Source: Gemmobacter serpentinus | GTDB taxonomy: Bacteria; Pseudomonadota; Alphaproteobacteria; Rhodobacterales; Rhodobacteraceae | Direction: 5' to 3' | Length of the DNA stretch: 64,000 nucleotides | Assembly: GCF_008973825.1 (NCBI RefSeq) | Contig: NZ_WCHR01000018.1 | Coordinates: forward strand, 186,001 to 250,000 | In this document: positions 1-27,657 of the stretch, piece after piece | How the letters are laid out: each line of letters starts with the position of its first letter | Numbering within the stretch: the stretch's first letter is position 1 | Notes under the pieces: model-generated | Databases searched by the model: none | What the model was told of the DNA's origin: nothing | The model's input: the letters and a program-made list of their open reading frames with translations, nothing else | Translations under genes and position numbers: made by a program

Positions 1-642
1 AAGCGCATTGCCCATCAGCAGACGCGTTCCGCGCTTGTGTCGTAGCCGGTCGCGGAAATAGGGCAGCACCACGCGCATCGTGGTCTTGAAATTGGCAAGG
101 CTGGCAAAGGGCTTCAGCAAGGCGCCAAGTTCGGCCCGGCCAACCATCATGCCACCCAGCCCCATGAAGACGGCATGGGGCGGGCGGACACGCGCGAAAT
201 CATTGCCAAGCAGGCGGCCGTCGAATTCCACCGGCGACAGCGCCCGCCCGCCATAGCCCGAACCGGGTCCATCCAGGTAATCGGGATGGGCGGCGGCGGG
301 GGCAAAGCGCACCTCGGAATGTGCCACCAGATCCGAAATCGCGGCATCGCCCGAGGCCAGGAACGCGGCCCTGACCGTATCGCCACCGCGATTGCCGACG
401 ACATGCTGCAGAAAGCGCGCGGCATCCTCGGCACTGTCATCCAGGCCGGCGGCGCGGGCAAGGCTGGTGCCCGGCACCCATGTCGTGCCGCCCGAGGTGG
501 AGGTGGTGCCGCCAACCATATCGGTCTTCTCGCAAAGCAGCACCTTCAGCCCCGCGATCGCGCCGGAGAGTGCCGCGGTCATGCCGCCCGCGCCCGCGCC
601 GAAGACCAGAAGGTCCACCTCTTCGTCGAATGCTGCGCCCAT
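1..642 (-). CDS. FAD-dependent oxidoreductase, KstD/fumarate-reductase-like (3' part outside window)
   Basis: The gene starts at an ATG (640-642) and reads without a stop to the window edge, giving the first 214 residues. The N-terminus has a Rossmann FAD motif (GAGAGG, about residues 16-21), an acidic end of beta-2 (CEK), and the GGTTSTSGG stretch typical of the FAD_binding_2 superfamily. This family includes 3-ketosteroid Delta1-dehydrogenases, fumarate reductases and cyclic-ketone desaturases. It is clearly related to the flavoproteins at 6565-8247 and 17740-19485; for instance it shares the LARAAG and GNAL segments with the latter. It is divergent from the dehydrogenase at 764, and a candidate operator lies between them. 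Substrate is unknown. A ring desaturase is inferred from the neighbourhood; the C-terminal catalytic region is not visible. Confidence 0.85.
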   Translation of the reverse strand, partial: MGAAFDEEVDLLVFGAGAGGMTAALSGAIAGLKVLLCEKTDMVGGTTSTSGGTTWVPGTSLARAAGLDDSAEDAARFLQHVVGNRGGDTVRAAFLASGDAAISDLVAHSEVRFAPAAAHPDYLDGPGSGYGGRALSPVEFDGRLLGNDFARVRPPHAVFMGLGGMMVGRAELGALLKPFASLANFKTTMRVVLPYFRDRLRHKRGTRLLMGNAL

Positions 643-717
643 GGCCTGCCCATCCCCTGCTGCCTGTCTGGATTCTGCGCGGAAACTTGCACAGAATGCA
701 GATAAATGGAAGATGTT

Positions 718-745
718 TTGAAAGTTGAATGATATTCAGCATAAT
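718..745 (+). promoter_or_regulatory. Candidate sigma-70-type promoter with embedded operator
   Basis: TTGAAA (718-723) and CATAAT (740-745) are separated by 16 nt and each matches the consensus at 5 of 6 positions. The spacer is almost exactly filled by the inverted motif GTTGAA-TGATA-TTCAGC (724-740), a layout expected for a repressor-controlled promoter. The predicted start would be only about 12 nt before the ATG at 764. Confidence 0.5.
724..740. promoter_or_regulatory. Operator candidate, GTTGAA-N5-TTCAGC
   Basis: This inverted repeat with 6-nt arms and a 5-nt spacer has one mismatch to the exact GCTGAA-N5-TTCAGC found at 15419-15435 and 16832-16848. It lies between the divergent genes starting at 642 (-) and 764 (+). 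I infer a shared regulator, most simply the IclR-family protein encoded at 16865-17695. Confidence 0.5.
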
Positions 746-763
746 GTGGCAAAGGGGGATGAC

Positions 764-1639
764 ATGGCGACGATTCTGGTTGTGGGGGGCACGGGATTCA
801 TCGGGCGCCGCGTGGTGGTGCAACTGATCGCGGCGGGCGCGGTGCCGCGCGTCTTCGATCTGCCGCAGGCGATTGCGCGCTATCAGGCCCCTGCGGGTTG
901 CGACGTGGTCTTGGGCGACGCGGTGCAGGCTGATGACATTGCCCGGGCCGCAGAAGGCTGCGCCGGGATCGTGCATCTTGCCGGGATCATGACCGTCGAT
1001 TGCGCCGCCAATCCGGCGCGGGCCATCGATGTGAACCTTGTGACCAGCCTGAACGTCTTGCAGGCGGCGGCAAGGTGGAAGATCCCCGTGGCCTATCTGG
1101 GCACTGCCGGTGTCTTTGGTCCTGACAGTGCGACGCATCCCAAACCGATGACGGTCTATGGCGTGACCAAGCTTGCCGTCGAAGGGCTGGCGCGGGTCTT
1201 TGCCGCCGATCATGGCGTCAGCAGTCTGGGGTTGCGGCCCTATATCGTCTACGGCCCCGGCATCAGCAGCGGCATTGCCGCTGGGCCGTCGATCGCACTT
1301 GCGGCCTCGGTCACGCGTGAAGCGGCGATGATCCGGTTTTCGGGCCGGGTGGGCTTTGTCCACGTTGATGATGTGGCGCGCTTGCTGGTTGCGGGGGCCT
1401 TGCATCCAGCCCCCGGCGCGCATGTGCTGACCATGGCGGGCGATACGCAGGAGATGACGGATTTCGTGGCGGAACTTGCCCGTCAAAGCGGCTGGGATGG
1501 CATCGGCATCGAGGGGCCGCCGCTGCGCATCCCCGCTGATCTGGCCAGCGACCCGGTGCCCGCAGATTATGGCTCGCAGCCGGTGACCCGGCTGGCAGAG
1601 GGGATCGCCGCGACGCTGGCCGAGTTGCGGGCCAAGTAG
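764..1639 (+). CDS. NAD-dependent epimerase/dehydratase-family (extended SDR) protein
   Basis: This 291-residue protein begins MATILVVGGTGFIG, the GxxGxxG dinucleotide motif of extended short-chain dehydrogenases. It also has a catalytic YGVTK (Tyr-x3-Lys) near residue 130 and a substrate region typical of UDP-sugar-epimerase relatives. I chose the ATG at 764 because AAAGGGGG lies 5 nt upstream. A TTG at 725 in the same frame would add 13 residues but lacks a ribosome binding site. The gene is divergent from the flavoprotein at 1-642 and convergent with quiC. In this neighbourhood it probably oxidises or reduces a hydroxyl of a cyclic acid or its derivative; the family alone does not show the substrate. 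Confidence 0.8.
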   Translation: MATILVVGGTGFIGRRVVVQLIAAGAVPRVFDLPQAIARYQAPAGCDVVLGDAVQADDIARAAEGCAGIVHLAGIMTVDCAANPARAIDVNLVTSLNVLQAAARWKIPVAYLGTAGVFGPDSATHPKPMTVYGVTKLAVEGLARVFAADHGVSSLGLRPYIVYGPGISSGIAAGPSIALAASVTREAAMIRFSGRVGFVHVDDVARLLVAGALHPAPGAHVLTMAGDTQEMTDFVAELARQSGWDGIGIEGPPLRIPADLASDPVPADYGSQPVTRLAEGIAATLAELRAK

Positions 1640-1705: not shown

Positions 1706-3592
1706 TCAGTAGCTCGGCATTCCGGCAGGGCGGGCATCGCGCTTTTGCGCGGCAATGCGGAAGGGCGCATTGGGGGCACCATAACCCGCATAGCGGCCCT
1801 GCCGCTGCACCACCTCCAGAAACAGCCCGCCCGGCTGGGCCTGACAGTAGAATTGCAGAAAGCCGCCAGTCGCATCCTCGTCATACATGATGTTGCGGGC
1901 GCGCAGGGCAGCGGTCAGGTCGGGATCAAGGCCAAAGCGCGCCTCCATATCGGCATAGTAATTCGCGCCGATCTGCAACAAGGGGAAGCCGCGCGCCGCC
2001 ATCGCATCGGCGCTGGCCAGAATATCGCGGCTCGCAAAGGCGATATGCTGGACCGAAGCGCCGAAAGTATCCTCGATGAACCGCCCGGCCAGCGTGCGTC
2101 GCGCCTCGGCCCCGTTCAGGGTGACGCGCAACCCGCCGCTTTCCACCGCCTGACTGCGCACCAGCCCGTCGGGGTCGATCACATCGACCATCGGGGTTTT
2201 CGCCGCATCGAAGATTGTGGTGTAAAACAGGCTCCAGCTCAGCATTTCGTCATAGGCCATGGTCTGGCCCAGATGGTCGATGCCGGTCAGGCCCGCGCCC
2301 TCGGGGGCATCCGTCCCCGGGGCAAGATCAAAGTCAACCTCCCAGATCCGGGCGAGATCGGAGCGGCGATCCAGAAAGCGGATCACACTGCCGCCGACAC
2401 CGCGAATGCCGGGGATCGACAGTTCCGACGGACCATGAGGGGCCTGATGCGGCTGCGCCCCAAGCGCGAGGGCACGGGCCTGCGCGGCCTGGGCATCCGG
2501 CACCAGCAGGCCCACTTCGGATACCCCGGTGCCATGCGTGGCCCATGCCTTATGGGCAAAGCCCTCTTCCTCGGCATTGACCAGCACATTGGCGCCGCCC
2601 TGGCGCCAGAGCGTGACACGCTTGCTGCGGTGCTGGCCTGCGCGGGCAAAGCCTGCGGCCCCCAGCAGGGCCTCCAGGGGGGCTGCCTCTTTCGCGCTGG
2701 TGGCAAATTCGATGAACTCGACCCGATCCACCTTTTGCGGGGCAGGGAAGGCAGGCAAGGCCGGTTCCAGTGCGGGTTCGGTCCGGCGCACGCGGTCCAT
2801 CAGGGCGACAAGGCTGCGATGCCCGTCGCGCGCCACCTGCCGGGGCAGACCGGCGCGGAACTGATCGTTGAAAATCTCAAGGCTCAGCGGCCCGCGATAA
2901 CCGGTGGCCAGCACGGCGCGGGTAAAGGCTGTGACATCCAGATCGCCCTCGCCCGGCATATTGCGGAAGTGCCGCGACCAATAGAGCAAATCCATCTCGA
3001 TGGCGGGCGCATCGGCCAACTGCACGAAGAATACCTTGTCGCCGGGAATGCGCCGGATCGTTTCGGGGTCGAGCTTGCGGCCAAGCGTGTGGAAACTGTC
3101 CAGGATCAGCCCGATATTGGGGTGATCGGCGCGGCGCACCACCTCCCATGCGTCGCGGTGATCGTTCACATGGCGCCCCCAGCACAACGCCTCATAGCCG
3201 ACACGGATGCCATAGCCTGCGGCGATCTCACCCAGTTCCCGGAAATCGGCGGCGGCGCGGTCGATTCCGCCCATGGCCTGCGGATGTGTGGAGGAGCAGA
3301 ACAGCACCAGATCGGTGCCAAGTTCCGTCATCAGGTCGAACTTGCGGCGGGCGCGGGCAAAGGCGCGGCTGCGTTGCGGCTCGGGCAGCCCTTCAAAATC
3401 GCGGAAGGGCTGGAACAGCGTGATTTCCAACTCGTGATCGCGCACCATGCGCCCGACCTCGCGGGGGGTGAAGTCCGAGGCCAGGAAATCCTGCTCGAAG
3501 ATCTCGATCCCGTCAAAGCCCGCCTGCTGGATCGCGGCGAGCTTTTCGGTGAATGTGCCGGAAATCGATACGGTGGCAATCGAGGTTTTCAT
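1706..3592 (-). CDS. quiC: 3-dehydroshikimate dehydratase, two-domain bacterial type
   Basis: It converts 3-dehydroshikimate to protocatechuate, the entry of quinate and shikimate into the beta-ketoadipate pathway. The 628-residue protein is a fusion. Residues 1 to about 270 are an AP-endonuclease-2-type TIM barrel carrying the expected metal ligands Glu134, Asp165, Gln191 and Glu239, seen in the YEAL, ILDSFHT, FVQLADA and SLEIFND segments. Residues from about 285 to the end are a 4-hydroxyphenylpyruvate-dioxygenase-like vicinal oxygen chelate module. This architecture and length match the QuiC1-type enzymes of Pseudomonas. It lies downstream of pobA on the same strand after a 96-nt gap. The neighbouring pcaHG supplies the next enzyme. 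The assignment is firm from architecture and ligands. Confidence 0.93.
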   Translation of the reverse strand: MKTSIATVSISGTFTEKLAAIQQAGFDGIEIFEQDFLASDFTPREVGRMVRDHELEITLFQPFRDFEGLPEPQRSRAFARARRKFDLMTELGTDLVLFCSSTHPQAMGGIDRAAADFRELGEIAAGYGIRVGYEALCWGRHVNDHRDAWEVVRRADHPNIGLILDSFHTLGRKLDPETIRRIPGDKVFFVQLADAPAIEMDLLYWSRHFRNMPGEGDLDVTAFTRAVLATGYRGPLSLEIFNDQFRAGLPRQVARDGHRSLVALMDRVRRTEPALEPALPAFPAPQKVDRVEFIEFATSAKEAAPLEALLGAAGFARAGQHRSKRVTLWRQGGANVLVNAEEEGFAHKAWATHGTGVSEVGLLVPDAQAAQARALALGAQPHQAPHGPSELSIPGIRGVGGSVIRFLDRRSDLARIWEVDFDLAPGTDAPEGAGLTGIDHLGQTMAYDEMLSWSLFYTTIFDAAKTPMVDVIDPDGLVRSQAVESGGLRVTLNGAEARRTLAGRFIEDTFGASVQHIAFASRDILASADAMAARGFPLLQIGANYYADMEARFGLDPDLTAALRARNIMYDEDATGGFLQFYCQAQPGGLFLEVVQRQGRYAGYGAPNAPFRIAAQKRDARPAGMPSY

Positions 3593-3688: not shown

Positions 3689-5445
<1,757 letters not shown>

Positions 5446-5534
5446 CGCCATCCTCCCTCTGGCCCCTGCATGGCCGAAGGCGGGGCATCCGGGAAATGGA
5501 CCGGGCGTCGGAAAGATTGGACGATTCCCGGACC

Positions 5535-6443
5535 TCAGCCCTCTGGCTGGGCTTGCTTGCGGAAATTGCCCGGCGAGAGGCCGACCCGCTGGGTGAAGAA
5601 GCGGTTGAAATAGGCGGGATCATCAAAGCCGGTCAGATGCGCCACCTGCGCCACGCTGCTTTCGGTATAGATCAGATAGCGCTTTGCCTCGGTGATGAGG
5701 CGGGCATAAAGCAGCTCTGACGCGGTCTTGTCGGCCCGCGCCTTGCAGGCGGCGTTCAGACGGGCCGGAGTTACGGCAAGTTCGCCCGCATAGAAGGACA
5801 GCGCGCGCTCTTGGCGGAAATGCTGTTCCAGCAGCGCGCGGTAGCGCATCACAAGATCATGGTCGCGGTCCGGCAGGGCGGTGGCCTGATCCTGTTCGGT
5901 GATCGACAGCCGCAGCAGGATCACCAGAACGCGCATGAACTGCGCCATGATCGCGGTGCGCCGCCCCGGCGAGGACCAGATGAATTCCTGATGCAGCCAG
6001 TCGAAGGTGTCGATGACGGCATCGAGGTTCAGCCCGGACCCCGCCACCGGATAGACGGCGGGGCGCGCGGCCACCTCGGCCAGACGCGGGTCGGTCGCGG
6101 TGGCGGCGCGCAGGCAACCAAGTGCTGCCGTCACCACATAGCCATCGGTGCCGGGCTGAAAATCGATCTGATGCACGATCCCTGCCGGGATACAGAGCAG
6201 CACGGGGGCCGTGAAATCCTGCTGGCGTTCCTCCATCCTGATGGTGCCGCCACCGTCGCGCAGCAGCAGGACCTGCATGTGATCGGGATGGGAATGGGGA
6301 CGAATCCTCCAATCATTCGGGCCGGAGCGGTCGCGGATCGGTTCGATATGCAGCAGGTCCAGTTCGACATCCGCGCCCTGATCGCCATAAAGATAATAGC
6401 GCGGGATGGCCCTTGGCCCGGTCGCGCCCCGTGATGCCGCCAT
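5535..6443 (-). CDS. AraC-family transcriptional regulator, PobR-like
   Basis: The 302-residue protein has an N-terminal cupin-like sensing domain (PHSHPDHMQVLLL, about residues 45-60) and a C-terminal AraC double helix-turn-helix ending in the signature TGFDDPAYFNRFFTQRVGLSPGNFR split across residues 270-295. The ATG at 6443 is chosen because GAGAGGGGGG lies about 7 nt upstream; longer in-frame starts would run into the divergent gene's leader. It lies upstream of NIPSNAP-pobA on the same strand and is divergent from the flavoprotein at 6565. AraC-type PobR proteins activate pobA in response to 4-hydroxybenzoate in many proteobacteria, so this is a good PobR candidate. Control of the divergent flavoprotein operon is equally possible. 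Confidence 0.85.
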   Translation of the reverse strand: MAASRGATGPRAIPRYYLYGDQGADVELDLLHIEPIRDRSGPNDWRIRPHSHPDHMQVLLLRDGGGTIRMEERQQDFTAPVLLCIPAGIVHQIDFQPGTDGYVVTAALGCLRAATATDPRLAEVAARPAVYPVAGSGLNLDAVIDTFDWLHQEFIWSSPGRRTAIMAQFMRVLVILLRLSITEQDQATALPDRDHDLVMRYRALLEQHFRQERALSFYAGELAVTPARLNAACKARADKTASELLYARLITEAKRYLIYTESSVAQVAHLTGFDDPAYFNRFFTQRVGLSPGNFRKQAQPEG

Positions 6444-6471
6444 GCTGCCCCCCTCTCGCAATACGCCTGAC

Positions 6472-6488
6472 GAATTGTGCAAGAATTG
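6472..6488. promoter_or_regulatory. Direct repeat GAATTG x2, possible AraC-type site
   Basis: GAATTG occurs at 6472-6477 and 6483-6488, an 11-nt period that places both copies on the same face of the helix. It lies in the 121-nt gap between the AraC gene and the divergent flavoprotein operon. Tandem direct half-sites suit AraC-family dimers; nothing else supports it. Confidence 0.25.
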
Positions 6489-6564
6489 GCGGGCAGCGTC
6501 CATTGGTTCCGCCCCATCCACCCGGCTAGTCAGGGTGCAGCGAAACAGGAAGGGGGGCCGCGCC

Positions 6565-8247
6565 ATGGAACGCAGCTATGATGTGCTGGTCGTGGGGTCA
6601 GGGGCCGGGGGGCTGGCCACCGCGATCACCGCCAAGAAGCACGGGCTTTCGGTGCTGGTTATCGAGAAAGAGCCGGTCTTTGGCGGAACCACCGCCTTCT
6701 CCGGCGGGGTCTTGTGGATCCCCGGCAACCGGCATGGGCGGGTGAATAACCCGGGTGACAGCCGCGCGGCCGCGCGCAGCTATCTTCAGGCCGAGACCGG
6801 AAATTTCTACCAGCCCGAGGCGGTGGAGGCCTTTCTGGAGGCGGGCCCCCGGATGCTCGATTGGTTCGAGCGCGAGACGGCGGTGAAATTCGTGCCGACG
6901 CTTTATCCCGACTATCACCCGACAGTCACCGGCGGCGTGGATGTCGGGCGGTCGGTGCTGGCCGCGCCCTTTGACAGCAGCAGCCTTGGCCCGAACCTGA
7001 AACGGCTGCGTCCGCCGCTTTCGACCATCACCTTCATGGGGATGATGTTCAATTCATCAAATGCTGACATCAAGCATTTCTTCAATGCCACCAAATCGCT
7101 GGTCTCGTTTGGCTATGTCGCGAAACGCCTTGCCGCCCATGCGCTGGAGGTGGCACGGCACGGGCGCGGGGTGCAGGTCACATCGGGCAATGCGCTGGCG
7201 GCGCGGTTGGCCCAGACCTGTTTTGATCTTGGCATCGAGATCCAGACCGACACGCCCGCGCTGCGGCTGTTGCAGGCCGACGGGCGGGTGACCGGGGTCG
7301 AGACGCCCAAGGGCGCGATCACCGCAAGCCGGGGCGTGGTGCTGGCCTGCGGTGGCTATGCGCAGGATCTGGCGCGCCGCGCCGGGGTCTATGCCCATCT
7401 GAAGGCGGGCGGCACCCATCACAGCCCGGTGCCTTCCGGCAATACTGGTGACGGGATCCGGCTGGCCGAGGCGGTGGGCGGATCGTTTGACGCCGAATTT
7501 GCCGAGCCAGCGGCCTGGATGCCGGTCAGCCTTGTGCCGGGGCAGGGGGTGTTCCCGCATCTGCTGGACCGCTACAAGCCCGGCATGATCGCGGTGGGGG
7601 CGGATGGGCACCGCTTCACCAATGAAAGCGAAAGCTATCATGATGTGGGCGCGGCGATGGTGGCGCAGCGACAGGCGGGGGGCGATGCCTCATGCTGGCT
7701 GATCTGCGATCATCGCACCATCCGCAAATACGGGCTGGGGCACGCCAAGCCCGCGCCGATGCCGCTCTGGCTCTGGACGCGGAATGGCTATCTGAAAAAG
7801 GGCCGGACGCTGGCCGATCTGGCCCGCGTCTGCGGTCTGCCCGCAGCGGGGCTGGTAGCCACGGTGGCCGCCTATAATCGCAATGCGGTGCAGGGGCGTG
7901 ATCCGGCCTTCCATCGGGGCGAAACCAGCTTCAACCGCTATCTGGCCGATCCCGATCACAAGCCCAACCCTTGTGTGGCACCCCTGGAAAAGGGGCCGTT
8001 CTATGCGGTGAAGATGGAAATGGGCGATCTGGGCACCTTTGACGGGTTGAAGACCACGGTGGAGGGCGCGGTGACCGACCGCGCTGGCACGCCGATTGCC
8101 GGGCTTTTCGCCGTGGGCAATGACCGCGCCAGCATCATGGGCGGCAATTACCCCGGCGCGGGTATCACGCTTGGCCCGGCCATGACCTTTGGCTGGATCA
8201 CCGGGCGGCACCTTGCGGGCATCAACGAGATGGGAGAACAGGCATGA
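6565..8247 (+). CDS. FAD-dependent oxidoreductase, KstD-like ring desaturase candidate
   Basis: This 560-residue flavoprotein has the N-terminal GSGAGG FAD motif (residues 11-16), GGTTAFSGG (about 41-49), a second FAD segment near the C-terminus and the ending GNYPGAGITLGPAMTFG. In 3-ketosteroid Delta1-dehydrogenases, a C-terminal Tyr and a Gly four residues later polarise the substrate ketone. The NYPGAG segment preserves this Tyr-x3-Gly spacing. The ATG at 6565 is preceded by AGGAAGGGGGG. It starts an operon with two SDR genes (overlaps of 4 and 8 nt). I infer Delta-dehydrogenation of a cyclic ketone or keto acid, as in 4-oxocyclohexanecarboxylate desaturases. A urocanate- or fumarate-reductase-type role is the alternative. 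Confidence 0.85.
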   Translation: MERSYDVLVVGSGAGGLATAITAKKHGLSVLVIEKEPVFGGTTAFSGGVLWIPGNRHGRVNNPGDSRAAARSYLQAETGNFYQPEAVEAFLEAGPRMLDWFERETAVKFVPTLYPDYHPTVTGGVDVGRSVLAAPFDSSSLGPNLKRLRPPLSTITFMGMMFNSSNADIKHFFNATKSLVSFGYVAKRLAAHALEVARHGRGVQVTSGNALAARLAQTCFDLGIEIQTDTPALRLLQADGRVTGVETPKGAITASRGVVLACGGYAQDLARRAGVYAHLKAGGTHHSPVPSGNTGDGIRLAEAVGGSFDAEFAEPAAWMPVSLVPGQGVFPHLLDRYKPGMIAVGADGHRFTNESESYHDVGAAMVAQRQAGGDASCWLICDHRTIRKYGLGHAKPAPMPLWLWTRNGYLKKGRTLADLARVCGLPAAGLVATVAAYNRNAVQGRDPAFHRGETSFNRYLADPDHKPNPCVAPLEKGPFYAVKMEMGDLGTFDGLKTTVEGAVTDRAGTPIAGLFAVGNDRASIMGGNYPGAGITLGPAMTFGWITGRHLAGINEMGEQA

Positions 8248-10564: not shown

Positions 10565-10565
10565 G

Positions 10566-16848: not shown

Positions 16849-16864
16849 AACGGAAAACAGTGCC

Positions 16865-20093: not shown

Positions 20094-20098
20094 GCGCC

Positions 20099-20923
20099 AT
20101 GGCACATCCGCTTTCGCTTGCCTTCCTGACCACCTTTGAGGTCAGCCCTGTCGACGCCGTGAAGATCGCGGCCGAGACCGGCTATCAGATGGTCGGTCTG
20201 CGCATCCTGCCCGCCGCTGCCAGTGGCGAGCCGGACTATTCCCTGCTGACCAACGACCGCGAATTGGCCGAGGTGCAGGCCGTGTTGCGCGATACCGGGG
20301 TCACAGTGGGGGATGTGGAGATCATCCGCCTGAAGCCAGAGAATGACTGGGATCTGTTCGCCCGCTTCTGCGCCAGATGCGAGGCGCTGTTGGCACGGCA
20401 TATCCTTGTCGCGGGGGATGATCCCGATCACGCCCGGCTGACCGACAGTTTCGCGCGGTTTTGCGAGATCGCGGCACGCCACCGCCTGACGGCGGATCTG
20501 GAGTTCATGCCCTGGACGGCGGTGCCGGATCTGACGGCGGCGCTGCAGATCGTGCAGGCGGCAGGGGCCGGGAATGGCGGCGTGCTGGTCGATGCGCTGC
20601 ATTACGACCGGTCCACCACCACGCTGGAACAGATCGCGGCCCTGCCCGCAGATCGCGTGAACTATGTGCAGTTCTGTGATGGCACCGTGCCCTATGACCC
20701 GAGCGATGAGGGGCTGATCCGCATCGCGCGGGGCGAGCGGCTGTTCCCGGGGCAGGGCGGGATCGATCTGATCGGGTTGGCGCGCGTCATTCCCGAAGGC
20801 GTGACCATCAGCGTCGAGGTGCCGCATCGCCCGTTGGCCACCAAGATCGATGCCCGTGCCCGCGCCGAAATGGCGATTGCCGCGACCCGTGGCATCCTGC
20901 GGGCTGCCGGACGCACCGCCTGA
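20099..20923 (+). CDS. TIM-barrel protein of sugar-phosphate isomerase/AP-endonuclease-2 family
   Basis: A 274-residue xylose-isomerase-like barrel. Candidate metal ligands appear at strand ends: Glu in DLEFMPW, Asp in VLVDALHYDRS, Gln in VQFCDG and Glu in ISVEVPH. This Glu/Asp/Gln/Glu order is the one seen in the N-terminal half of QuiC. The protein could be an isomerase, epimerase or dehydratase of a hydroxylated cyclic acid, possibly a single-domain dehydroshikimate-dehydratase-like enzyme. It begins 5 nt after the NIPSNAP gene, and its stop touches the longer possible start of the following LysR gene. No substrate can be read from sequence. Confidence 0.75.
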   Translation: MAHPLSLAFLTTFEVSPVDAVKIAAETGYQMVGLRILPAAASGEPDYSLLTNDRELAEVQAVLRDTGVTVGDVEIIRLKPENDWDLFARFCARCEALLARHILVAGDDPDHARLTDSFARFCEIAARHRLTADLEFMPWTAVPDLTAALQIVQAAGAGNGGVLVDALHYDRSTTTLEQIAALPADRVNYVQFCDGTVPYDPSDEGLIRIARGERLFPGQGGIDLIGLARVIPEGVTISVEVPHRPLATKIDARARAEMAIAATRGILRAAGRTA

Positions 20924-20982
20924 TGCAGAAAACTGCGCGCGCGGGGCTGGCCGTCGCGCGCGCTTTGCGCATAGGGTCGGGC

Positions 20983-21927
20983 ATGACCGAACTGACGCTG
21001 CGACAGGTGGAAGTGATCCGCGCCGTGATGCTGGCCGGGACGATTCAGGGGGCGGCCACGCTGCTGAACGTCTCGGCCCCCGGCATTTCGCGGCTGGTGA
21101 AACATACCGAAGACCTGCTGGGGATCCGCCTGTTCGAGCGCAAGGCGGGCCTGTTCCTGCCTGCCGCCGAGGCGCACGCGATCTTCGAGATGATCCATCA
21201 GGTGCATCATCAGATCGGCAACCTGAACCTTGCGGTCGCGGCGCTGCAAAAGGGCGAAGGGATGCGGCTGTCTTTTGCATCCGCCCCCTCCATCGCACAA
21301 TTCATCGCGGCCCGTGCCATTCGCGGCATCCGCAAACGCTTTCCCGATCTGTTCATCGATCTGAACATCCTGAAGATCGAGGAGACCACGGATTATCTGC
21401 TGCTGGAGCGCGGCGAGTTTGTGGTGATGAGTTCGGCCATCGACAACCCGGGCTTTGACTGTGCGCCGCTGGCGCGCGGGAGGCTGGTGGCGATCTTGCC
21501 CGAGGGGCATCGGCTTGCGGCGCAGGCCGATATTTCGGTGCATGATCTGGCACAGGAAGATTTCGTGGGCGTGGATCCCGGCGACCCCTACGGCGAGATT
21601 CTGGCGCGCCCCTTTACCGAGGCCGGCATCACCCCGCGCCACGCGCTGCGCGGGCGCTTCGCGCAAACCGTGGTCAGTCTGGTGCGGCACGGTCTGGGCG
21701 TTGCGATCATCGACGAATTTTCGGTCGCCGAAGTCTATATGCCCGGCCTTGTGCGCCGCCCGCTGCGCGAGCCGTCGGAGATTTCGGCCTGGGTGGTGAC
21801 GAAACGCGGGCGCGAACTGTCAAGTTTTGCCGAATTTGCCATTGGCCGCTTTCGGCGCGAGCTGGCGCAGGTGGTTGCGGGATCCGACACGCGGGCAGGC
21901 GATCAGGGGCTTGGCGGCGGCATCTGA
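20983..21927 (+). CDS. LysR-family transcriptional regulator
   Basis: A 314-residue LysR protein. The helix-turn-helix lies at residues 5-60 (LRQVEVIRAVMLAGTIQGAATLLNVSAPGISRLVKHTE, in two helices), followed by an effector-binding domain (about 90-295) of the periplasmic-binding-protein type. I prefer ATG 20983 (AGGG 8 nt upstream); an ATG at 20923 overlapping the previous stop is also in frame. It is the last gene of the iclR-flavoprotein set and overlaps convergent pcaQ by 25 bp at the 3' ends. Targets are unknown; the flavoprotein/NIPSNAP genes are plausible. Confidence 0.87.
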   Translation: MTELTLRQVEVIRAVMLAGTIQGAATLLNVSAPGISRLVKHTEDLLGIRLFERKAGLFLPAAEAHAIFEMIHQVHHQIGNLNLAVAALQKGEGMRLSFASAPSIAQFIAARAIRGIRKRFPDLFIDLNILKIEETTDYLLLERGEFVVMSSAIDNPGFDCAPLARGRLVAILPEGHRLAAQADISVHDLAQEDFVGVDPGDPYGEILARPFTEAGITPRHALRGRFAQTVVSLVRHGLGVAIIDEFSVAEVYMPGLVRRPLREPSEISAWVVTKRGRELSSFAEFAIGRFRRELAQVVAGSDTRAGDQGLGGGI

Positions 21928-22832
21928 GCCGCGATCTCGCGCGCGACCTCTTCCAGCGTGGCCAGACCGGGCGCAGAGGCGCTTTGGCGCCGGGTGATAC
22001 CGACCGCGCCGGACAGGAAGCGCGCGCCGACCGGCAGTTCCTGCATCAGCCCGTGTTCCAGTTCCTCTGCGATCACCCCGCGCGAGATGAACCAGAGCGC
22101 ATCCGAGGCAAGACAGATGCCGCGCCCGACCGCCAAAGAGACCGTCTCGACCGCCGGGACGACCCCGATCAGGCCAAGCGAGGCAAGGTAATCATCGACA
22201 GGGCGGCGGATCAGCGCCGTCCGTGGCGGCAGGATCAGCGGTACATTGGCCAAGGCCTCGGCCACGGGGCGCGCGCCCAGCGGGTGACCGGCGCGCCCGA
22301 CCAGAACCACGTCTTCTTCATAAAGGTGCTCAAAGCTCAGACCCGGCATTTCCGACACATCCGGCAGGCGGCCAATCATCAGATCAATGCCGCCCTCGCG
22401 CAGCTGGCGGATCAGATGGTGATGTGGACCGGTCTCGACCGACAGCAGGATCTCGGGGCGCAATTCGCGAAAGCGCAGCACCACCGCGGGAAAGACCCGC
22501 GTCGCGGCGGTCGGCAACACGCCCACCTGCAACGAGCCGCCGCTGCCGGGGCGCAACGCCGCCGCCCCCGCCTCCAGCGATTCTACTGCCAAAGCGGCAT
22601 GACGGCGGAAGATGCGCCCGCCTTCCGTCAGCACCAGCCGCCGCCCTTGCCGCAGGAACAAGGGTTGACCCAGCAAATCCTCAAGCTCTGCCAGCGTGCG
22701 CGACAGCGCGGGCTGGGTGATGCCCTGCGCCCGCGCCACAATCGACAGCCCGCCTTCGGCCGCGATATCCAGAAACGCCCTGATATGGCGCAGCTTCACC
22801 CCTGGGTGCATAACTGAACGTTTATCCATCAT
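21903..22832 (-). CDS. pcaQ: LysR-family regulator of the pca genes
   Basis: A 309-residue LysR protein divergent from pcaD, the classical pcaQ position in alphaproteobacteria. The N-terminal region VKLRHIRAFLDIAAEGGLSIVARAQ continues into the recognition helix GITQPALSRTLAELE, a PcaQ/GbpR-type opening; the remainder is the substrate-sensing domain. In the family, PcaQ activates pcaDCHGB in response to beta-carboxymuconate or its lactone. Tandem ATG codons at 22832 and 22829 are both possible starts. A candidate LysR box lies at 22845-22860. Its 3' end overlaps the convergent LysR gene. Confidence 0.88.
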   Translation of the reverse strand: MMDKRSVMHPGVKLRHIRAFLDIAAEGGLSIVARAQGITQPALSRTLAELEDLLGQPLFLRQGRRLVLTEGGRIFRRHAALAVESLEAGAAALRPGSGGSLQVGVLPTAATRVFPAVVLRFRELRPEILLSVETGPHHHLIRQLREGGIDLMIGRLPDVSEMPGLSFEHLYEEDVVLVGRAGHPLGARPVAEALANVPLILPPRTALIRRPVDDYLASLGLIGVVPAVETVSLAVGRGICLASDALWFISRGVIAEELEHGLMQELPVGARFLSGAVGITRRQSASAPGLATLEEVAREIAAQMPPPSP

Positions 22833-22844
22833 CGCAAGCTTTGC

Positions 22845-22860
22845 ATTATCCAAACCAAAT
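22845..22860. promoter_or_regulatory. LysR-type box ATT-N10-AAT between pcaQ and pcaD
   Basis: ATTATCCAAACCAAAT has dyad ends and fits the T-N11-A rule. It is in the 63-nt pcaQ-pcaD gap. It does not match the ATAACC-N4-GGTT site described for rhizobial PcaQ well, so it is only a candidate. Confidence 0.35.
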
Positions 22861-22895
22861 TTGTCGTGGCAGATTATGGAAGAGTGGAGGATGCC

Positions 22896-23675
22896 ATGCA
22901 AGTTCTGAGCCGCCCCTGGGGGGCGATGCACTACCGTTTGGACGGGCCCGAGGGCGGCGTTCCGGTGGTTTTCGCCAATTCTCTGGGCACCGATCTGCGA
23001 TTGTGGGATGCGGTTCTGCCGCTGCTGCCCGGCATCCGCGCGATCCGTTTCGACAAACGCGGGCACGGGCTGTCGGATCTGTCCGGGCCGCATGAGATCC
23101 ACGATCTGGCCGAGGATGTGGCGGCGCTGATCGCGGCTGTGGCGGATGGCCCGGTGATCTTCGTGGGCCTTTCTGTCGGGGGTGGGATCGGGCAGGCACT
23201 GGCCGCGCGACGCCCGGAATTGCTGCGCGCCATGGTCCTGTCCAATACTGCGGCGAAGATGGGTCATGCCGAGGGGTGGCAGGCGCGGATTGCCGCGATC
23301 CGTGCGGGCGGGCTTGCCGCCATTACCGATGCGGTGATGGAACGCTGGTTCGCACCTGCCTTCCGCGCGAGCCCCGCACTTGCCCCTTGGCGCAATATGT
23401 TCGAACGCACTGATGCGGCGGGCTATATCGCCACCTGCGAGGTGTTGGCCGCCTGCGATCTGACCGCAAGCGCCGCCGGTTTGAGGTTGCCGGTGCAAGT
23501 GATCGCCGGGGGTGCGGATGGTGCCTCGCCGCCCGATCTGGTCGCCGCGACCGCCGCCCTGATCCGGGGTGCCAAATATCATGTGATTCCCGAGGCAGGC
23601 CATTTGCCCTGCGTCGAAACCCCCGAAGCCTGGGCGGCCATCGTGTCGCCCTTCCTCCAGGAACATGCCCGATGA
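22896..23675 (+). CDS. pcaD: 3-oxoadipate enol-lactonase
   Basis: A 259-residue alpha/beta hydrolase that hydrolyses beta-ketoadipate enol-lactone to beta-ketoadipate. The nucleophile is in GLSVGGGIGQ (Ser near residue 93), the acid lies in the AGGADGAS region and the catalytic His is in EAGHLPCVE. The oxyanion region VVFANSLGTDLRLWD is characteristic. ATG 22896 is set by GGAGG 5 nt upstream; a GTG at 22866 lacks one. Its stop overlaps the pcaC start (ATGA). First gene of pcaDCHG-DUF849-pcaB. Confidence 0.95.
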   Translation: MQVLSRPWGAMHYRLDGPEGGVPVVFANSLGTDLRLWDAVLPLLPGIRAIRFDKRGHGLSDLSGPHEIHDLAEDVAALIAAVADGPVIFVGLSVGGGIGQALAARRPELLRAMVLSNTAAKMGHAEGWQARIAAIRAGGLAAITDAVMERWFAPAFRASPALAPWRNMFERTDAAGYIATCEVLAACDLTASAAGLRLPVQVIAGGADGASPPDLVAATAALIRGAKYHVIPEAGHLPCVETPEAWAAIVSPFLQEHAR

Positions 23676-24064
23676 CCGATACCTATTCTGCCGGAATGGC
23701 GACCCGCCGCAAAGTCCTGGGTGCGGCCCATGTCGACCGGGCCGAGGCCGACAAGACCGAATTCGACAGCCCTTATCAGGCGCTGATCACCGAGGCCGCC
23801 TGGGGCCATGTGTGGTCGCGCAAGACCATATCGCCGCGTGAACGTTCCATGCTGACCATCGCCCTGCTGGCGGGTCTGGGCAACGATCACGAACTGGCCA
23901 TGCACATCCGCGCCACCGTGAATACAGGCGCGTCCCCGGATGATATCCTTGAGGTGATGTTGCATGTTGCCATCTATGCTGGCGTCCCCCGCGCGAACCA
24001 TGCCATCAAGATAGCCAAGGAGACGTTCGCAATGATGAACGCCGAGAAAGAGGGGGGTAAATGA
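23672..24064 (+). CDS. pcaC: 4-carboxymuconolactone decarboxylase
   Basis: A 130-residue carboxymuconolactone decarboxylase-family protein that decarboxylates gamma-carboxymuconolactone to the enol-lactone used by PcaD. The segments [31 protein letters not shown] and [17 protein letters not shown] are family-defining, with Glu and His residues of the active site visible. It overlaps pcaD and pcaH by 4 nt each. The standalone form (no fusion to PcaD) is the usual proteobacterial arrangement. Confidence 0.96.
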
Positions 24065-24798
24065 CCCTCAGCAATTCCGTCGATCGCGGGCCCTTGTTTT
24101 TCCGCGACCGCGACTGGCACCCGGCGGCCTATACGCCGGGCTACAAGACCTCGATGACGCGCGCGCCGCAGCGCGCGTTGGTCGCCCTTGGATCGACCCT
24201 GTCGGAAGAGACCGGCCCCGCCTTCGGGCAATCGATGATCGGTGCGCTGGACAACAATCTGGTGATGAACTTCACCGGGCAGCCTGCGGTCGGCGAACGC
24301 ATCATCATGCATGGTCGGGTTCTCGACGAGCAGGGCCGGGGCGTGCCCAATGTGTTGGTCGAGATGTGGCAGGCCAATGCGGGCGGGCGCTACCGCCACA
24401 AGAAGGACGGCTATCTTGCGCCGCTGGACCCCAATTTCGGGGGCTGTGGTCGCACGCTGACCGGGCCGGATGGCAGCTATGAATTTCTGACCATCCGCCC
24501 TGGTGCCTATCCTTGGCCGAACCATGTGAACAACTGGCGGCCGATGCATATCCACTGGTCGGTCTTCGGATCCGGCTTCGGCCAGCGGCTGATTACCCAG
24601 AACTATTTCCAGGGTGATCCGCTGATCGATCTGTGCCCGATCGTGAACACCATCGGCAAGAAAGAGGCGATCGATATGCTGGTGGCTGCGCTGGACATGA
24701 ACCGGGCGATCCCGATGGATTGTCTGGCCTACAAGTTCGACATTGTGCTGCGCGGTCGCCGCCAGTCCTTCTTTGAAAACCGCAAGGAGGGGATGTGA
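24061..24798 (+). CDS. pcaH: Protocatechuate 3,4-dioxygenase beta subunit
   Basis: This is the iron-bearing subunit of the intradiol enzyme that opens protocatechuate to beta-carboxy-cis,cis-muconate. In the 245-residue protein the four ferric ligands can be placed as Tyr in GGRYRHK, Tyr in GAYPWPN and the two His of [10 protein letters not shown]. The flanking [10 protein letters not shown] segment is conserved. It overlaps pcaC by 4 nt and pcaG by 1 nt and forms the alpha/beta complex with PcaG. Confidence 0.97.
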
Positions 24799-25412
24799 TG
24801 GTGCAGCGTCTGGATTACCTCAAGGAAACCCCGTCGCAGACCGCAGGGCCCTATGTCCATATCGGCCTGACGCCCAATGCGCTTGGCAATCCCGGCATCT
24901 ACCCCGAGGATCTGGGCCGGTCGCCGATCCGCGACGGTGCCAAGGGCGAGCGGATCGTGATCACCGGCCGCGTCATCGATGGTGCCGGGATGATCCTGCG
25001 CGATGCGCTGTTCGAAAGCTGGCAGGCCGATGCCGATGGCATCTATCCCGCCAATGATCCGCGGGGTCAGGCTGACCCTGCGGTCACTGGCTGGGCCCGG
25101 GTGGCCGCCGATTTCGACAGCGGCATCTGGCGGCTGGAGACCATCAAGCCGGGCCGCGTGCCCTTTCCCGACGGCCGCCTGATGGCACCCCATATCGCGA
25201 TCTGGCTGGTGGCGCGTGGCATAAATCTCGGCCTGCAGACCCGGATCTATTTCGAGGATGAGGCCGAGGCCAATGCCGTCTGTCCGGTGCTGAACCGCAT
25301 CGAACATGTGGAACGCCGTCTGACGCTTCTGGCCCGCAAGACCGCACCGGGCACCTATAGCCTTGATTTCCGGCTGCAGGGCGAGGGCGAGACCGTCTTC
25401 TTCGATATGTGA
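24798..25412 (+). CDS. pcaG: Protocatechuate 3,4-dioxygenase alpha subunit
   Basis: A 204-residue intradiol-fold subunit lacking the iron ligands, as expected for PcaG. TPSQTAGPYVHIGL at the N-terminus and DFDSGIWRLETIKPGRV with APHIAIWLVARGINLGLQTRIYF (in two parts) toward the end are typical. ATG 24798 overlaps the pcaH stop (TGATG), with AAGGAGGGG just upstream. The following DUF849 gene begins 6 nt after its stop. Confidence 0.96.
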   Translation: MVQRLDYLKETPSQTAGPYVHIGLTPNALGNPGIYPEDLGRSPIRDGAKGERIVITGRVIDGAGMILRDALFESWQADADGIYPANDPRGQADPAVTGWARVAADFDSGIWRLETIKPGRVPFPDGRLMAPHIAIWLVARGINLGLQTRIYFEDEAEANAVCPVLNRIEHVERRLTLLARKTAPGTYSLDFRLQGEGETVFFDM

Positions 25413-25418
25413 GTGACC

Positions 25419-26255
25419 ATGACCAACCCTTGCATCCTCTGCGTGGCGATCACCGGCTCTCTGCCGACCAAGGCCAACAATCCGGCGGTGCCGATCTCGA
25501 TCTCGGAACAGATCGAGTCGACGCAGGAGGCTTTCGAGGCCGGGGCCAGCATCGCGCATTGCCATGTGCGCGATGATGCCGGCGCGCCATCCTCGGACCC
25601 GGAGCGATTTGCGCGGTTGATGGAAGGGTTGAAAACCCATTGCCCGGGCCTGATCATCCAGCTTTCCACTGGTGGACGGTCCGGCGCGGGCCGCACGAGG
25701 GGCGGTATGCTGCCCCTCGCGCCGGACATGGCCTCGCTTTCGGTGGGGTCAAACAATTTCCCGACGCGGGTCTATGAGAACCCGCCCGATCTGGTGGATT
25801 GGCTGGCCTCCGAAATGCTGACCTATGCGGTCAAGCCCGAGATCGAGGCCTTCGATCTTTCGCATATCGTGCAGGCCGCCACGATGCAGCGCGACGGGCG
25901 GCTGAAGGGGCCGCTTTATGTGCAATTCGTGATGGGCGTGAAGAATGCGATGCCCGCGGATGAGCCGATCCTGGATTTCTATATCGAGACGCTGAAGCGG
26001 CTGGCCCCCGATGCCCAATGGTGCGCGGCGGGGATCGGGGCGGCACAGGTGACGGTAAATGAATGGGCGATCCGCAAGGGCGGCCATACCCGCACTGGCA
26101 TGGAAGACAATGTGCGACTGGATCGCGACCGGCTTGCGCCCTCCAATGCGGCGCTGGTGCGCCGCGCGGCCGACCTCTGCACGCAATATGCGCGCCCGGT
26201 TGCCACCTGGCAGCAGGCGCGCCAGATCCTGGGTCTGGCCATGCCTGCGGTCTGA
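25419..26255 (+). CDS. Beta-keto acid cleavage enzyme (BKACE, DUF849) in pca operon
   Basis: This 278-residue TIM-barrel protein is of the family that reacts a beta-keto acid with acetyl-CoA to give acetoacetate and a shortened acyl-CoA. The zinc-binding HxH appears as HCHVRDDAG near residue 46. LIIQLSTGGRSGAG and the late GGHTRTGMEDNV segment are conserved family motifs. It sits between pcaG and pcaB, 6 nt after pcaG. No pcaI, pcaJ or pcaF is in the window. The simplest inference is that it cleaves beta-ketoadipate to succinyl-CoA plus acetoacetate, replacing the CoA-transferase and thiolase. A DUF849 gene in this place is, to my recollection, recurrent in Rhodobacterales pca clusters. Confidence 0.85.
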   Translation: MTNPCILCVAITGSLPTKANNPAVPISISEQIESTQEAFEAGASIAHCHVRDDAGAPSSDPERFARLMEGLKTHCPGLIIQLSTGGRSGAGRTRGGMLPLAPDMASLSVGSNNFPTRVYENPPDLVDWLASEMLTYAVKPEIEAFDLSHIVQAATMQRDGRLKGPLYVQFVMGVKNAMPADEPILDFYIETLKRLAPDAQWCAAGIGAAQVTVNEWAIRKGGHTRTGMEDNVRLDRDRLAPSNAALVRRAADLCTQYARPVATWQQARQILGLAMPAV

Positions 26256-26328
26256 CCGCTGGCTTTACCGACCGCCTTGACGCATGGCATATCCTGCCGC
26301 GCCCGCCCATTCCAAAAAAGGCCCCGCC

Positions 26329-27657
26329 ATGCCCGCATCCGCCGCCGACAGCGCGCTTTATCGTCGCCTGTTTTCCGATGACGAAACTGCTGCCCTGTTC
26401 ACCGACAGCGCCGAGATCCGCGCCATGCTGCTGGTTGAAGGTGCCTTGGCGCGCGTGCAGGGGGAGATCGGGCTGATCCCGGCCGAGGCTGCGGCCTTTA
26501 TCGATCGCTCATCTCGCGAGGTGCAGATCGATCCTTCGGCTCTGGCGCTGGAAACCGCCACCAATGGCGTGCCGGTGCCGGCCCTCGTCACCGCCTTCCG
26601 CAAGGCGATGGAAGCCCCGGATCAGGCGCAGTATCTGCATTGGGGGGCCACCTCGCAGGATATCATGGATACCGCGTTGGCGCTGCGGCTGCGCCGGGTG
26701 ACTGCTTTGTGGGAGGCCCGGCTTGTCGCGCTGCTGCAGGCGCTTGGGCGGTTGGCTGCAGATCACGCAGAGCTGCCGATGGCCGCGCGCACCTATGGCC
26801 AGGCCGCGACCCCCACCAGTTTCGGCGCGGTCGTGGCGGGCTGGGGCCAGCCCTTGCTGCGCCACCGTGCGCGGCTGGCAGAACTGGCACCGGGGCTTGC
26901 GACCGTCTCGCTGGGGGGGGCGGCGGGGACACTGGCCGCGATGGGACCGGAGGGGCCTGCGGTGCGCGCGGCCTTGGCAAAGGCGCTGGATCTGGCCGAT
27001 CCCGGCCAGTCCTGGCATAGTGAGCGGGACCGGATCGCGGGCTTTGCCGCATGGATGGCGGGGCTCTGCGGCAGCCTTGGCAAGATCGGCGAGGATCTGA
27101 TCCTGATGGCGCAATCCGGCATCGGCGAGGTTGCGATTGCCGGGGCAGGGGGGTCATCCACCATGCCGCAGAAACAGAACCCGGTTGGCCCTTCGGTTCT
27201 GGTGGCGCTGGCGCATCAGACCGCCGGGCTTTCGGCCATGATGCAGGGCGCGATGCTGCATCGTCAGCAGCGCGACGGGGCGGCCTGGTTCACAGAATGG
27301 CTGACCCTGCCGCAGCTGTGCATCTCTACCGGCCGGGCCCTGGCACTGGCGCTGGATCTGGCCGGGCGCATCGCGCCGGTGCCGCAGGCCATGGCGCACG
27401 GGCTGAAGGACGGTTATGGCCTGATCCATGCCGAGGCGCTGTCCTTCGCATTGGCCCGCCACCTGCCGCGCCCCGAGGCGCAGGCCCGCATCAAGGCGCT
27501 GTGTTCCGAGGCCGCCGCGACCCAAACGCCGCTGCCCGTGCTGTTCGCGCGCGATTTCCCGGATCTGGATGCAAATGGCACCGCGAGCCTTGGCACGGCG
27601 CCAGCCGATGCACGGGCCTTTGCGGCATTGGCCCTTGCCATCTCGGCAGGTGCCTAG
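26329..27657 (+). CDS. pcaB: 3-carboxy-cis,cis-muconate cycloisomerase
   Basis: A 442-residue member of the fumarase/aspartase superfamily that lactonises beta-carboxymuconate to gamma-carboxymuconolactone. It shows HWGATSQDIMDTA (about residues 105-117) and the superfamily signature GGSSTMPQKQNPVGP (about 280-294), the flexible catalytic loop with its serine. I use ATG 26329 with AAGG upstream; an ATG at 26284 would add 15 unconserved residues. It is the last pca gene, followed by a GC hairpin (27663-27691) without a U-run. Confidence 0.95.
   Translation: MPASAADSALYRRLFSDDETAALFTDSAEIRAMLLVEGALARVQGEIGLIPAEAAAFIDRSSREVQIDPSALALETATNGVPVPALVTAFRKAMEAPDQAQYLHWGATSQDIMDTALALRLRRVTALWEARLVALLQALGRLAADHAELPMAARTYGQAATPTSFGAVVAGWGQPLLRHRARLAELAPGLATVSLGGAAGTLAAMGPEGPAVRAALAKALDLADPGQSWHSERDRIAGFAAWMAGLCGSLGKIGEDLILMAQSGIGEVAIAGAGGSSTMPQKQNPVGPSVLVALAHQTAGLSAMMQGAMLHRQQRDGAAWFTEWLTLPQLCISTGRALALALDLAGRIAPVPQAMAHGLKDGYGLIHAEALSFALARHLPRPEAQARIKALCSEAAATQTPLPVLFARDFPDLDANGTASLGTAPADARAFAALALAISAGA

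Follow-up and report, generated by a model that had tools for sequence, protein, structure and literature searches.

A candidate island for the aromatization of alicyclic acids to protocatechuate in Gemmobacter serpentinus

Introduction

What purpose do three flavoproteins resembling 3-oxosteroid 1-dehydrogenase (KstD) serve among the protocatechuate genes of an alphaproteobacterium? The question is raised by a stretch of 64,000 nucleotides of Gemmobacter serpentinus DNA (contig NZ_WCHR01000018.1; C12:186001-250000 in our numbering), hereafter the window, which lies within a 4.26 Mb genome (G000) and whose genes were checked via reading frames and profile scans. Judging from sequence relationships and gene neighborhoods, we consider it rather probable that this island imports and aromatizes saturated, ring-oxygenated cyclohexane carboxylic acids, with two branches leading into protocatechuate.

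The gene set named in the initial annotation, namely three KstD-like flavoproteins (FP1 to FP3), SDRs, a Gfo/Idh/MocA dehydrogenase (Gfo), QuiC, PobA, an AroE-like protein, a HAAT importer and pcaDCHGB, is present by open reading frames (ORFs) and profile scans. The order is FP1, an extended SDR (SDRx), QuiC, PobA, NIPSNAP-a and an AraC regulator; FP2, SDR1, SDR2, the HAAT importer and the AroE-like gene; Gfo, IclR, FP3, NIPSNAP-b, a TIM barrel and LysR; a PcaQ-like regulator; and pcaD, pcaC, pcaH, pcaG, BKACE and pcaB. To the earlier list we add a second, single-domain TIM barrel related to QuiC, a LysR regulator with relatives in QuiC clusters, and a BKACE gene between pcaG and pcaB.

Flavoproteins

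FP1 (1 to 642, minus strand; PF00890) is represented by its 5′ part, 214 of 559 residues lying inside the window; the whole gene (L009:8963-10642, about C12:184963-186642) extends leftward. FP2 is found at 6562 to 8247 and FP3 at 17740 to 19485, both on the plus strand. The best solved relative of all three is 7p18 (“3-oxosteroid 1-dehydrogenase”; E 2.4e-80 to 3.6e-90), and the equivalents of KstD Tyr318, Tyr487 and Gly491 are kept, which bears out their description as KstD-like. In KstD1 of R. erythropolis, passages of PMC5348764 describe Tyr487 and Gly491 as enolizing the ketone and Tyr119 and Tyr318 as taking the alpha proton, the beta hydride passing to flavin adenine dinucleotide (FAD). 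We aligned 96 distinct sequences including KstD1 and AcmB; 19 FP places were left out, nine from L070-L079 and the others, among them the FP3 of L041 and one copy from L085, cut short or stop-containing. Tyr318 is present in 96/96, and Tyr487 and Gly491 in 95/96, the exception being truncated. The Tyr119 position holds Tyr in 46 sequences, FP1 and FP2 included, and Phe, Thr, Ile or Met in the remaining 50, which are exactly the FP3 group. Within this group the residue follows the subgroups: Phe is mostly NIPSNAP-linked, Thr is QuiC-linked in the window's family and other Rhodobacterales, and Ile occurs in the Pseudomonas and Novosphingobium types. It may track the substrate. A PH(3-5)RxKPG stretch, found in 48/50 members of the FP3 group, 17/17 of FP2 and 13/13 of FP1 and missing in KstD1 and AcmB, would fit a small acidic substrate.

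In the tree, whose outgroup consisted of KstD1 and AcmB alone (it included no fumarate reductase and no ChcC sequence), FP1 to FP3 and their relatives form a group with 100% support apart from these two (95 sequences). FP2 and its relatives of at least 60% identity constitute a clade of 17 (FastTree support 1.0, ultrafast bootstrap 100); the FP3 group is weakly supported (40), as are its subgroups (0.36 and 0.68), and FP1 seems to be a separate lineage. FP3 passes the PRK06134 family cut-off (760.4 vs 747 bits; predicted model pLDDT 85.5). For PRK12843 (cut-off 758 bits) the Rhizobium FP1 passes at 822.7, with the FP1 of the window (672) and of Paraburkholderia (695) below; two Rhodococcus flavoproteins pass the PRK12839 cut-off.

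The initial annotation had regarded firm clustering with steroid-specific or fumarate-reducing enzymes as telling against its proposal. Such clustering did not occur, the flavoproteins being separate from KstD1 and AcmB and falling short of the flavocytochrome c cut-offs. Fumarate reductase or flavocytochrome c identity was rejected on TIGR01813 (cut-off 285.45 bits, against 157 for FP3, 147 for FP1 and 141 for FP2). The idea that the three are steroid or terpenoid ketone desaturases, next to the pca genes by accident, draws on the closest solved structures, which are steroid dehydrogenases, and on annotations that name some such genes 3-oxosteroid dehydrogenases. We nevertheless hold it to be very improbable. 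The likeness to KstD extends to the sequence family and to Tyr318, Tyr487 and Gly491, but all three proteins score well below the KstD equivalog cut-offs (FP2, for example, 442 of 789 bits) and differ in other conserved charged residues, the conserved His and Lys of the FP groups not standing at those places in KstD1 and AcmB. Their neighbors are shikimate dehydrogenase, QuiC, PobA and AliA/AliB/BadI, and no steroid gene or gene cluster was noticed in the loci examined, where no search was aimed at one. On the unmet cut-offs and the neighboring genes, the steroid reading was rejected as the best account.

The proposed 3-dehydroshikimate branch

QuiC (1706 to 3592, minus strand) has the two-domain make-up of a QuiC-type 3-dehydroshikimate dehydratase, AP_endonuc_2 being joined to an HPPD-like Glyoxalase_5 half, and is the sole match in the genome at E 1e-60. 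FP3 is followed by NIPSNAP-b (19482 to 20093, plus; PF07978), the TIM barrel (20096 to 20923, plus; PF01261, and 36 bits with the QuiC model) and the LysR gene (20983 to 21927, plus). Many genomes of the family possess an FP3-type gene and then a TIM barrel, divergent from a LysR gene whose product is 64-78% identical to that of the window, with QuiC some 7-9 kb away; at some of these loci an IclR gene stands between FP3-TIM and LysR. Where annotated or scanned (G217, Antarctobacter, Gemmobacter and Marinovum), a tripartite transporter and a shikimate dehydrogenase are situated between FP3-TIM and QuiC; the Gemmobacter locus also has pcaGHCD, and that of Marinovum a type II dehydroquinase. Elsewhere, FP3-type genes and QuiC are neighbors in Aureimonas, in one Billgrantia, and in three Pseudomonas and three Novosphingobium. 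In Azomonas agilis (L085) the neighbor of the FP3-type genes is just the end of a QuiC gene; three FP homologues are crowded into 8 kb there, next to it and an AroE-like gene. A single stretch comprises QuiC, TIM, Gfo, IclR and the FP3-type gene in P. putida 17522 and in Pseudomonas chlororaphis, which has PcaGH there too.

The association is also seen in genome counts. Of 295 genomes of the family, FP was matched in 34 at E 1e-100 and QuiC in 84 at E 1e-60; QuiC is present in 27/34 FP genomes (one of them with a partial QuiC) vs 57/261 others. A sample of 398 genomes of the phylum includes 25 with FP, 71 with QuiC and 21 with both, or 21/25 vs 50/373. The Fisher values, 6e-11 and 9e-14 respectively, ignore the kinship of the genomes, and this tells against giving them full weight. 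FP lies within 20 kb of QuiC in 14/26 family genomes having both, the window's own counted, a figure based on all 50 FP places and 63/87 QuiC places (the weakest were dropped, which among FP genomes lost only the partial G234). Two of the linked genomes, G000 and G205, are common to both samples. QuiC occurs in 22/39 loci outside the FP2 clade, ten of which (L070-L079) had been fetched for QuiC nearby, and in 12/29 without those; nine of 18 contig loci not chosen for QuiC carry it, one just its end. A NIPSNAP gene adjoins an FP3-like gene in five other family genomes (G036, G097, G153, G216 and G219), four of which have QuiC. The linkage of the FP3 group to QuiC speaks for placing it in the dehydroshikimate branch.

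The TIM barrel shares with the N-terminal domain of QuiC the aligned residues Glu136, Asp166, His169, Asp195, Arg212/Arg215, PGxG and Glu241, which we take to include the metal site. Its predicted model is confident (pLDDT 94.3); as to function, either another dehydratase besides QuiC or an isomerase is conceivable. Additional TIM-barrel copies were seen near islands of this kind (L081:16411-17235; L082:19460-20320 and 20388-21185).

The profile of the TIM barrel matches the solved chains 2g0w (Lmo2234), 1i60 (IolI), 3u0h and 5hmq, a 637-residue chain named 4-hydroxyphenylpyruvate dioxygenase that is presumably P. putida QuiC1. The presence of IolI among these relatives, and the resemblance of a Gfo gene with an IolI-like barrel to inositol catabolism, could indicate plain quinate/shikimate and 4-hydroxybenzoate catabolism beside a separate cyclitol or amino-cyclitol route, in which FP3, TIM, Gfo and NIPSNAP would work on inositol-like rings without ever yielding an aromatic. 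This arrangement would suit Bosea, Phyllobacterium and Rhodococcus, where FP and TIM genes are accompanied by iron-type ABC, sugar-type ABC or MFS transporters and, in the stretches covered, QuiC is missing. We think it unlikely: linkage of FP-TIM to QuiC recurs in Pseudomonas and Novosphingobium as well as in the window's family and further Rhodobacterales, and the barrel matches the QuiC-type chain 5hmq as well and keeps residues common to the QuiC N-terminal domain.

Proximity to QuiC would equally suit an FP3 that oxidizes 3-dehydroshikimate at C4-C5 to gallate, as a side exit, instead of making 3-dehydroshikimate; a KstD-type reaction on that ketone would be chemically possible. Protocatechuate 3,4-cleavage genes are nearby in both Gemmobacter and the window, though, and no gallate pathway gene was noticed (no model search for such genes was made), so that we give this proposal hardly any credence and retain formation of 3-dehydroshikimate as the proposed role of FP3.

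The proposed 4-hydroxybenzoate branch

PobA (3689 to 4855, minus strand) passes the 4-hydroxybenzoate 3-monooxygenase cut-off of TIGR02360 (646 vs 538.7 bits). It precedes NIPSNAP-a (4870 to 5451, minus; PF07978) of the FP2 unit and an AraC-type regulator (5535 to 6566, minus; PF12833) that is divergent from FP2 and kept beside it in relatives. From its profiles, catalytic residues and clade support, FP2 is the proposed ketone desaturase of this branch; SDR1 (8244 to 9017, plus; PF13561), downstream of FP2 in relatives, and SDR2 (8992 to 9768, plus, read from 9016; third-best model ChcB2) follow.

NIPSNAP lies within about 2.5 kb of FP2 in 16/17 members of the clade, the window counted, the remaining one (Rhizobium) being cut by the locus end. 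Those beside FP2 relatives take two forms, of about 190 and about 112 residues. Since other barrels of this kind belong to isomerases or cyclases, a tautomerase role is conceivable for NIPSNAP.

Haematobacter massiliensis displays pobA-NIPSNAP-AraC and divergent FP2 in the order of the window, with an aromatic acid symporter nearby. PobA is near FP2 also in Cupriavidus necator N-1, C. metallidurans (whose PobA passes PRK08243, not TIGR02360) and, about 22 kb away, Salipiger. It occurs in 5/17 FP2 loci vs 1/39 other FP loci (p 0.008; 0.02 without the window), counting loci of at least 15 kb (L095 thus left out) and FP matches of more than 400 residues; the Xinfangfangia FP2 in L080 (87% identical, cut at 393 residues) is among the 39, and moving it would give 5/18 vs 1/38. 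In several FP2 loci (L041, L042, L045 and L046) the sequence stops on one side a short way from FP2, and the plasmid loci were hand-picked from listings.

Plasmid pPABY2 of Salipiger abyssi bears, all within 27 kb, pobA, beta-oxidation-type genes, aliA, aliB, badI, and then TRAP-SDR-NIPSNAP-AraC divergent from FP2-SDR; its AliA, AliB, BadI and PobA pass their cut-offs, and its BadH-like SDR does not. In G137, aliA-aliB-badI, above equivalog cut-offs, are within about 12 kb of FP2, as they are in Salipiger. In G097 the NIPSNAP gene is followed by genes for an acyl-CoA (coenzyme A) dehydrogenase, PcaR (324 vs 284.75 bits), CoA-transferases (PcaJ-type, 300.7 vs 243.55) and a PcaF-like protein. 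The linkage of the FP2 clade to PobA and aliA-aliB-badI likewise speaks for placing it in the 4-hydroxybenzoate/cyclohexanecarboxylate branch. CoA ring-opening as the route of the window's own genome was rejected, BadI being below its cut-off there (best 141 of 467.6 bits). Each aromatic branch tends to have its own flavoprotein type.

Conservation of the core island

Mapping of the window proteins onto other loci shows the core to be syntenic in Paracoccus, Rhizobium and Aureimonas as well as in further members of the window's family. Paracoccus sp. MA shows the same gene order from QuiC through LysR (18 genes mapped, 68-92% identity). Plasmid pPAN3 of P. pantotrophus shows it at 66-92% identity, an additional AroE-like copy there having 40%, in the order BKACE-pcaB, FP1-SDRx-QuiC-NIPSNAP-AraC, FP2-SDR1-SDR2-Liv-AroE and Gfo-IclR-FP3-NIPSNAP. 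Close versions are found in Rhizobium ACO-34A, P. shandongensis (whose stretch has no FP2 block), Aureimonas sp. ME7, Xinfangfangia pollutisoli (pca genes at 80-94%, no LysR or BKACE matches) and the family genomes G097 and G153. Because this order recurs in Paracoccus sp. MA, in pPAN3 and in the close versions elsewhere, the clustering is more than chance.

The window, Paracoccus sp. MA, P. pantotrophus and Aureimonas have QuiC inside the island; several of the remaining loci end short of that point. PobA is the direct neighbor of the FP2 unit in Haematobacter and the window, and the two Cupriavidus have it within a few kb of FP2. Since the placement of QuiC and PobA differs among syntenic loci, the constant part is the flavoproteins, dehydrogenases, NIPSNAP and importer, and the aromatic genes vary. 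Gene identities, catalytic residues, synteny and co-occurrence are established. IS66, IS21, IS4 and a group II intron gene stand around the FP2-NIPSNAP-SDR-importer unit on a plasmid of Neorhizobium petrolearium (L115); because of these flanking elements the unit may be mobile.

Other gene products

The extended SDR (764 to 1639, plus strand; PF01370) adjoins FP1 or sits inside the core in relatives. The importer comprises LivF, LivG, LivM and LivH (9842 to 13158, minus), identified by ORFs and with relatives 72-94% identical in syntenic islands, and a HAAT substrate-binding protein (13312 to 14439, minus), identified by profile and conserved in the islands. The AroE-like dehydrogenase (14594 to 15418, minus) scores above the PF08501 cut-off with its N-terminal domain and has 4k28 as its nearest solved chain; it is under every listed NCBIfam AroE or quinate dehydrogenase cut-off (best 134.7 of 235 bits). 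A further shikimate-dehydrogenase gene exists in the genome (C10:195698), in a stretch that matches island proteins just weakly. The Gfo gene (15766 to 16836, plus; PF01408) is followed by the IclR-type regulator (16856 to 17695, plus; PF01614, PF09339).

The PcaQ-like LysR regulator (21903 to 22847, minus) is below its cut-off (274 of 303.8 bits). Then come pcaD, pcaC, pcaH and pcaG (22866 to 25412, plus), PcaD passing TIGR02427 (279 vs 255.9 bits) and PcaC having a CMD domain; pcaH and pcaG were assigned from ORFs, with PcaH relatives, rather than by profile scan. BKACE (25413 to 26255, plus) is of the 3-oxoadipate:acetyl-CoA type (NF053568, 489 vs 350 bits), and pcaB (26284 to 27657, plus) passes TIGR02426 (358.8 vs 355.75). 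A BKACE above its model cut-off, placed between pcaG and pcaB, suggests that CoA-transfer cleavage of 3-oxoadipate replaces PcaIJ and PcaF. A BKACE gene also adjoins FP-TIM in G217.

Eight of the family FP genomes are devoid of a PcaH match (1e-60). Because seven of these eight carry LigA above cut-off, a protocatechuate-type sink is likely to be present in them; G274 alone has neither.

Proposed route

The HAAT system would import the acid, and an SDR, Gfo or the AroE-like enzyme would oxidize a ring hydroxyl to a ketone. A KstD-type flavoprotein would then act, its conserved Tyr abstracting a proton alpha to the ketone and FAD accepting a hydride from the following carbon. In the branch of FP3, TIM and QuiC, a 3-oxo ring would be desaturated to 3-dehydroshikimate or a stereo- or regio-isomer, which QuiC or the QuiC-like barrel would dehydrate to protocatechuate; such a step on 3-oxo-4,5-dihydroxycyclohexanecarboxylate would yield 3-dehydroshikimate directly. 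In the branch of FP2, probably with FP1, SDR1/SDR2 and NIPSNAP-a, a 4-oxo ring would become 4-hydroxybenzoate, by analogy with the chc pathway through two KstD-type steps on 4-oxocyclohexanecarboxylate, and PobA would convert this to protocatechuate. PcaGH, PcaB, PcaC and PcaD would lead on to 3-oxoadipate, to be cleaved by BKACE with acetyl-CoA. The desaturation chemistry is that put forward in the initial annotation, and we see none that would suit better. All substrates, the allotment of dehydrogenases to branches, and the roles of NIPSNAP, SDRx and TIM are what we infer; dihydroshikimate and hydroxycyclohexanecarboxylates are candidate substrates.

A number of observations weigh against this route. 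FP3 carries Phe at the Tyr119 position. Besides the KstD equivalog scores given above, all three flavoproteins fall below ChcC2 (NF053677, 900 bits; FP2 546, FP3 462, FP1 403) and ChcC1 (NF053676, 1000 bits; FP3 334, FP2 320, FP1 286), SDR2 is below ChcB2 (215 of 350 bits), and QuiC is below NF042435 (648 vs 1200 bits over nearly full length; the P. pantotrophus QuiC scores 645). In the phylum sample FP is within 20 kb of QuiC in just 6/21 genomes having both, and in G036, where NIPSNAP adjoins an FP3-like gene, QuiC is not matched; the FP of that genome lies outside the FP3 group. PcaH is not clearly enriched among family FP genomes (26/34 vs 155/261, p 0.06). PobA, QuiC, pca and ali/bad genes are all missing from the stretch covered at eight of the 17 loci of the FP2 clade, although the Rhizobium one is cut just left of FP2 and another has benC annotated. 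The Paracoccus methylovorus core set adjoins phenylacetate and urease genes, and neither it nor the core modules of Limimaricola and Paraburkholderia have adjacent QuiC, PobA or protocatechuate genes; FP and nearby TIM genes in Bosea, Phyllobacterium and Rhodococcus sit with the other transporters mentioned, an intradiol dioxygenase gene being 12 kb from FP-TIM in the Bosea stretch. The second QuiC-like barrel is unexplained if QuiC already dehydrates the product.

Taken with these points, the interpretation in the initial annotation is partly supported. Its two-branch hydroaromatic/alicyclic route appears likely from the ketone-desaturase residues and from the links of FP3 with QuiC and of FP2 with PobA and ali genes, with the scores below the ChcC, KstD and QuiC cut-offs and the cores that have no QuiC, PobA or protocatechuate genes next to them on the other side. 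It had also counted the occurrence of these sets elsewhere without any aromatic genes as adverse; the core sets just named, with none of QuiC, PobA or protocatechuate genes adjoining, bear this out in part.

Comparison with known systems

In the chc pathway of Sinomonas/Corynebacterium cyclohexanicum, passages of PMC9795900 describe formation of a ring ketone, then desaturation to 4-hydroxybenzoate and conversion to protocatechuate. The island would follow the same sequence with KstD-like desaturases, the KstD-likeness of the chc enzymes resting on the ChcC model matches reported here. Unlike chc, it is Gram-negative, joined to a QuiC branch, equipped with NIPSNAPs and a HAAT importer, and far under the ChcC1, ChcC2 and ChcB2 cut-offs. 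The absence of a P450 noted in the initial annotation was confirmed, PF00067 matches in the genome falling only on C22 and C11 and none on the island contig C12.

With quinate/shikimate catabolism via QuiC/QsuB the island has in common a two-domain QuiC, a shikimate-dehydrogenase-like gene and protocatechuate 3,4-cleavage genes; the dehydratase activity of two-domain QuiC1/QsuB is placed in the N-terminal domain in PMC7442255. It differs in adding a KstD-like flavoprotein, TIM barrel, Gfo and NIPSNAP. By title or the opening of the abstract, no open-access paper among the matches listed tied a KstD-like flavoprotein to quinate/shikimate clusters. As an example of reduced quinate products, a passage of PMC7427622 states that dihydroshikimic acid may arise from chlorogenic acid through lactic acid bacteria; the “dihydroshikimate” in passages of PMC8706239 seems to be dehydroshikimate loosely named and was set aside.

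The bad-ali cyclohexanecarboxyl-CoA pathway of Aromatoleum and Rhodopseudomonas degrades cyclohexanecarboxylate (passages of PMC9795900). AliA/AliB/BadI near FP2 in G137 and Salipiger recall it, but that pathway is CoA-dependent and has no aromatic intermediate, and BadI of the window's genome is below cut-off.

Significance

Ordinary parts (PobA, QuiC and Pca) are here joined to a conserved desaturation module that is, as far as we found, uncharacterized. More tentatively, and with somewhat less than even probability, the module may represent a widespread, undescribed proteobacterial pathway in which saturated hydroxylated cyclohexanecarboxylates are aromatized without a ring oxygenase by a ring-alcohol dehydrogenase, a KstD-type desaturase and a metal-dependent dehydratase. 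Dihydroshikimate-like acids would be converted by FP3-TIM to intermediates of the dehydroshikimate type, and 4-oxo rings by FP2 to 4-hydroxybenzoate, in some cases alongside CoA-dependent cyclohexanecarboxylate genes. If true, this would explain the flavoprotein-TIM pair that recurs in quinate-type clusters, where the flavoprotein is labeled just “FAD-dependent oxidoreductase” (or as of fumarate reductase type) and its partner just “TIM barrel” or sugar isomerase. It would provide a sink for reduced quinate products and desaturases for making aromatics from alicyclic acids, and quinate and naphthenic-acid-type catabolism would share one enzymatic logic.

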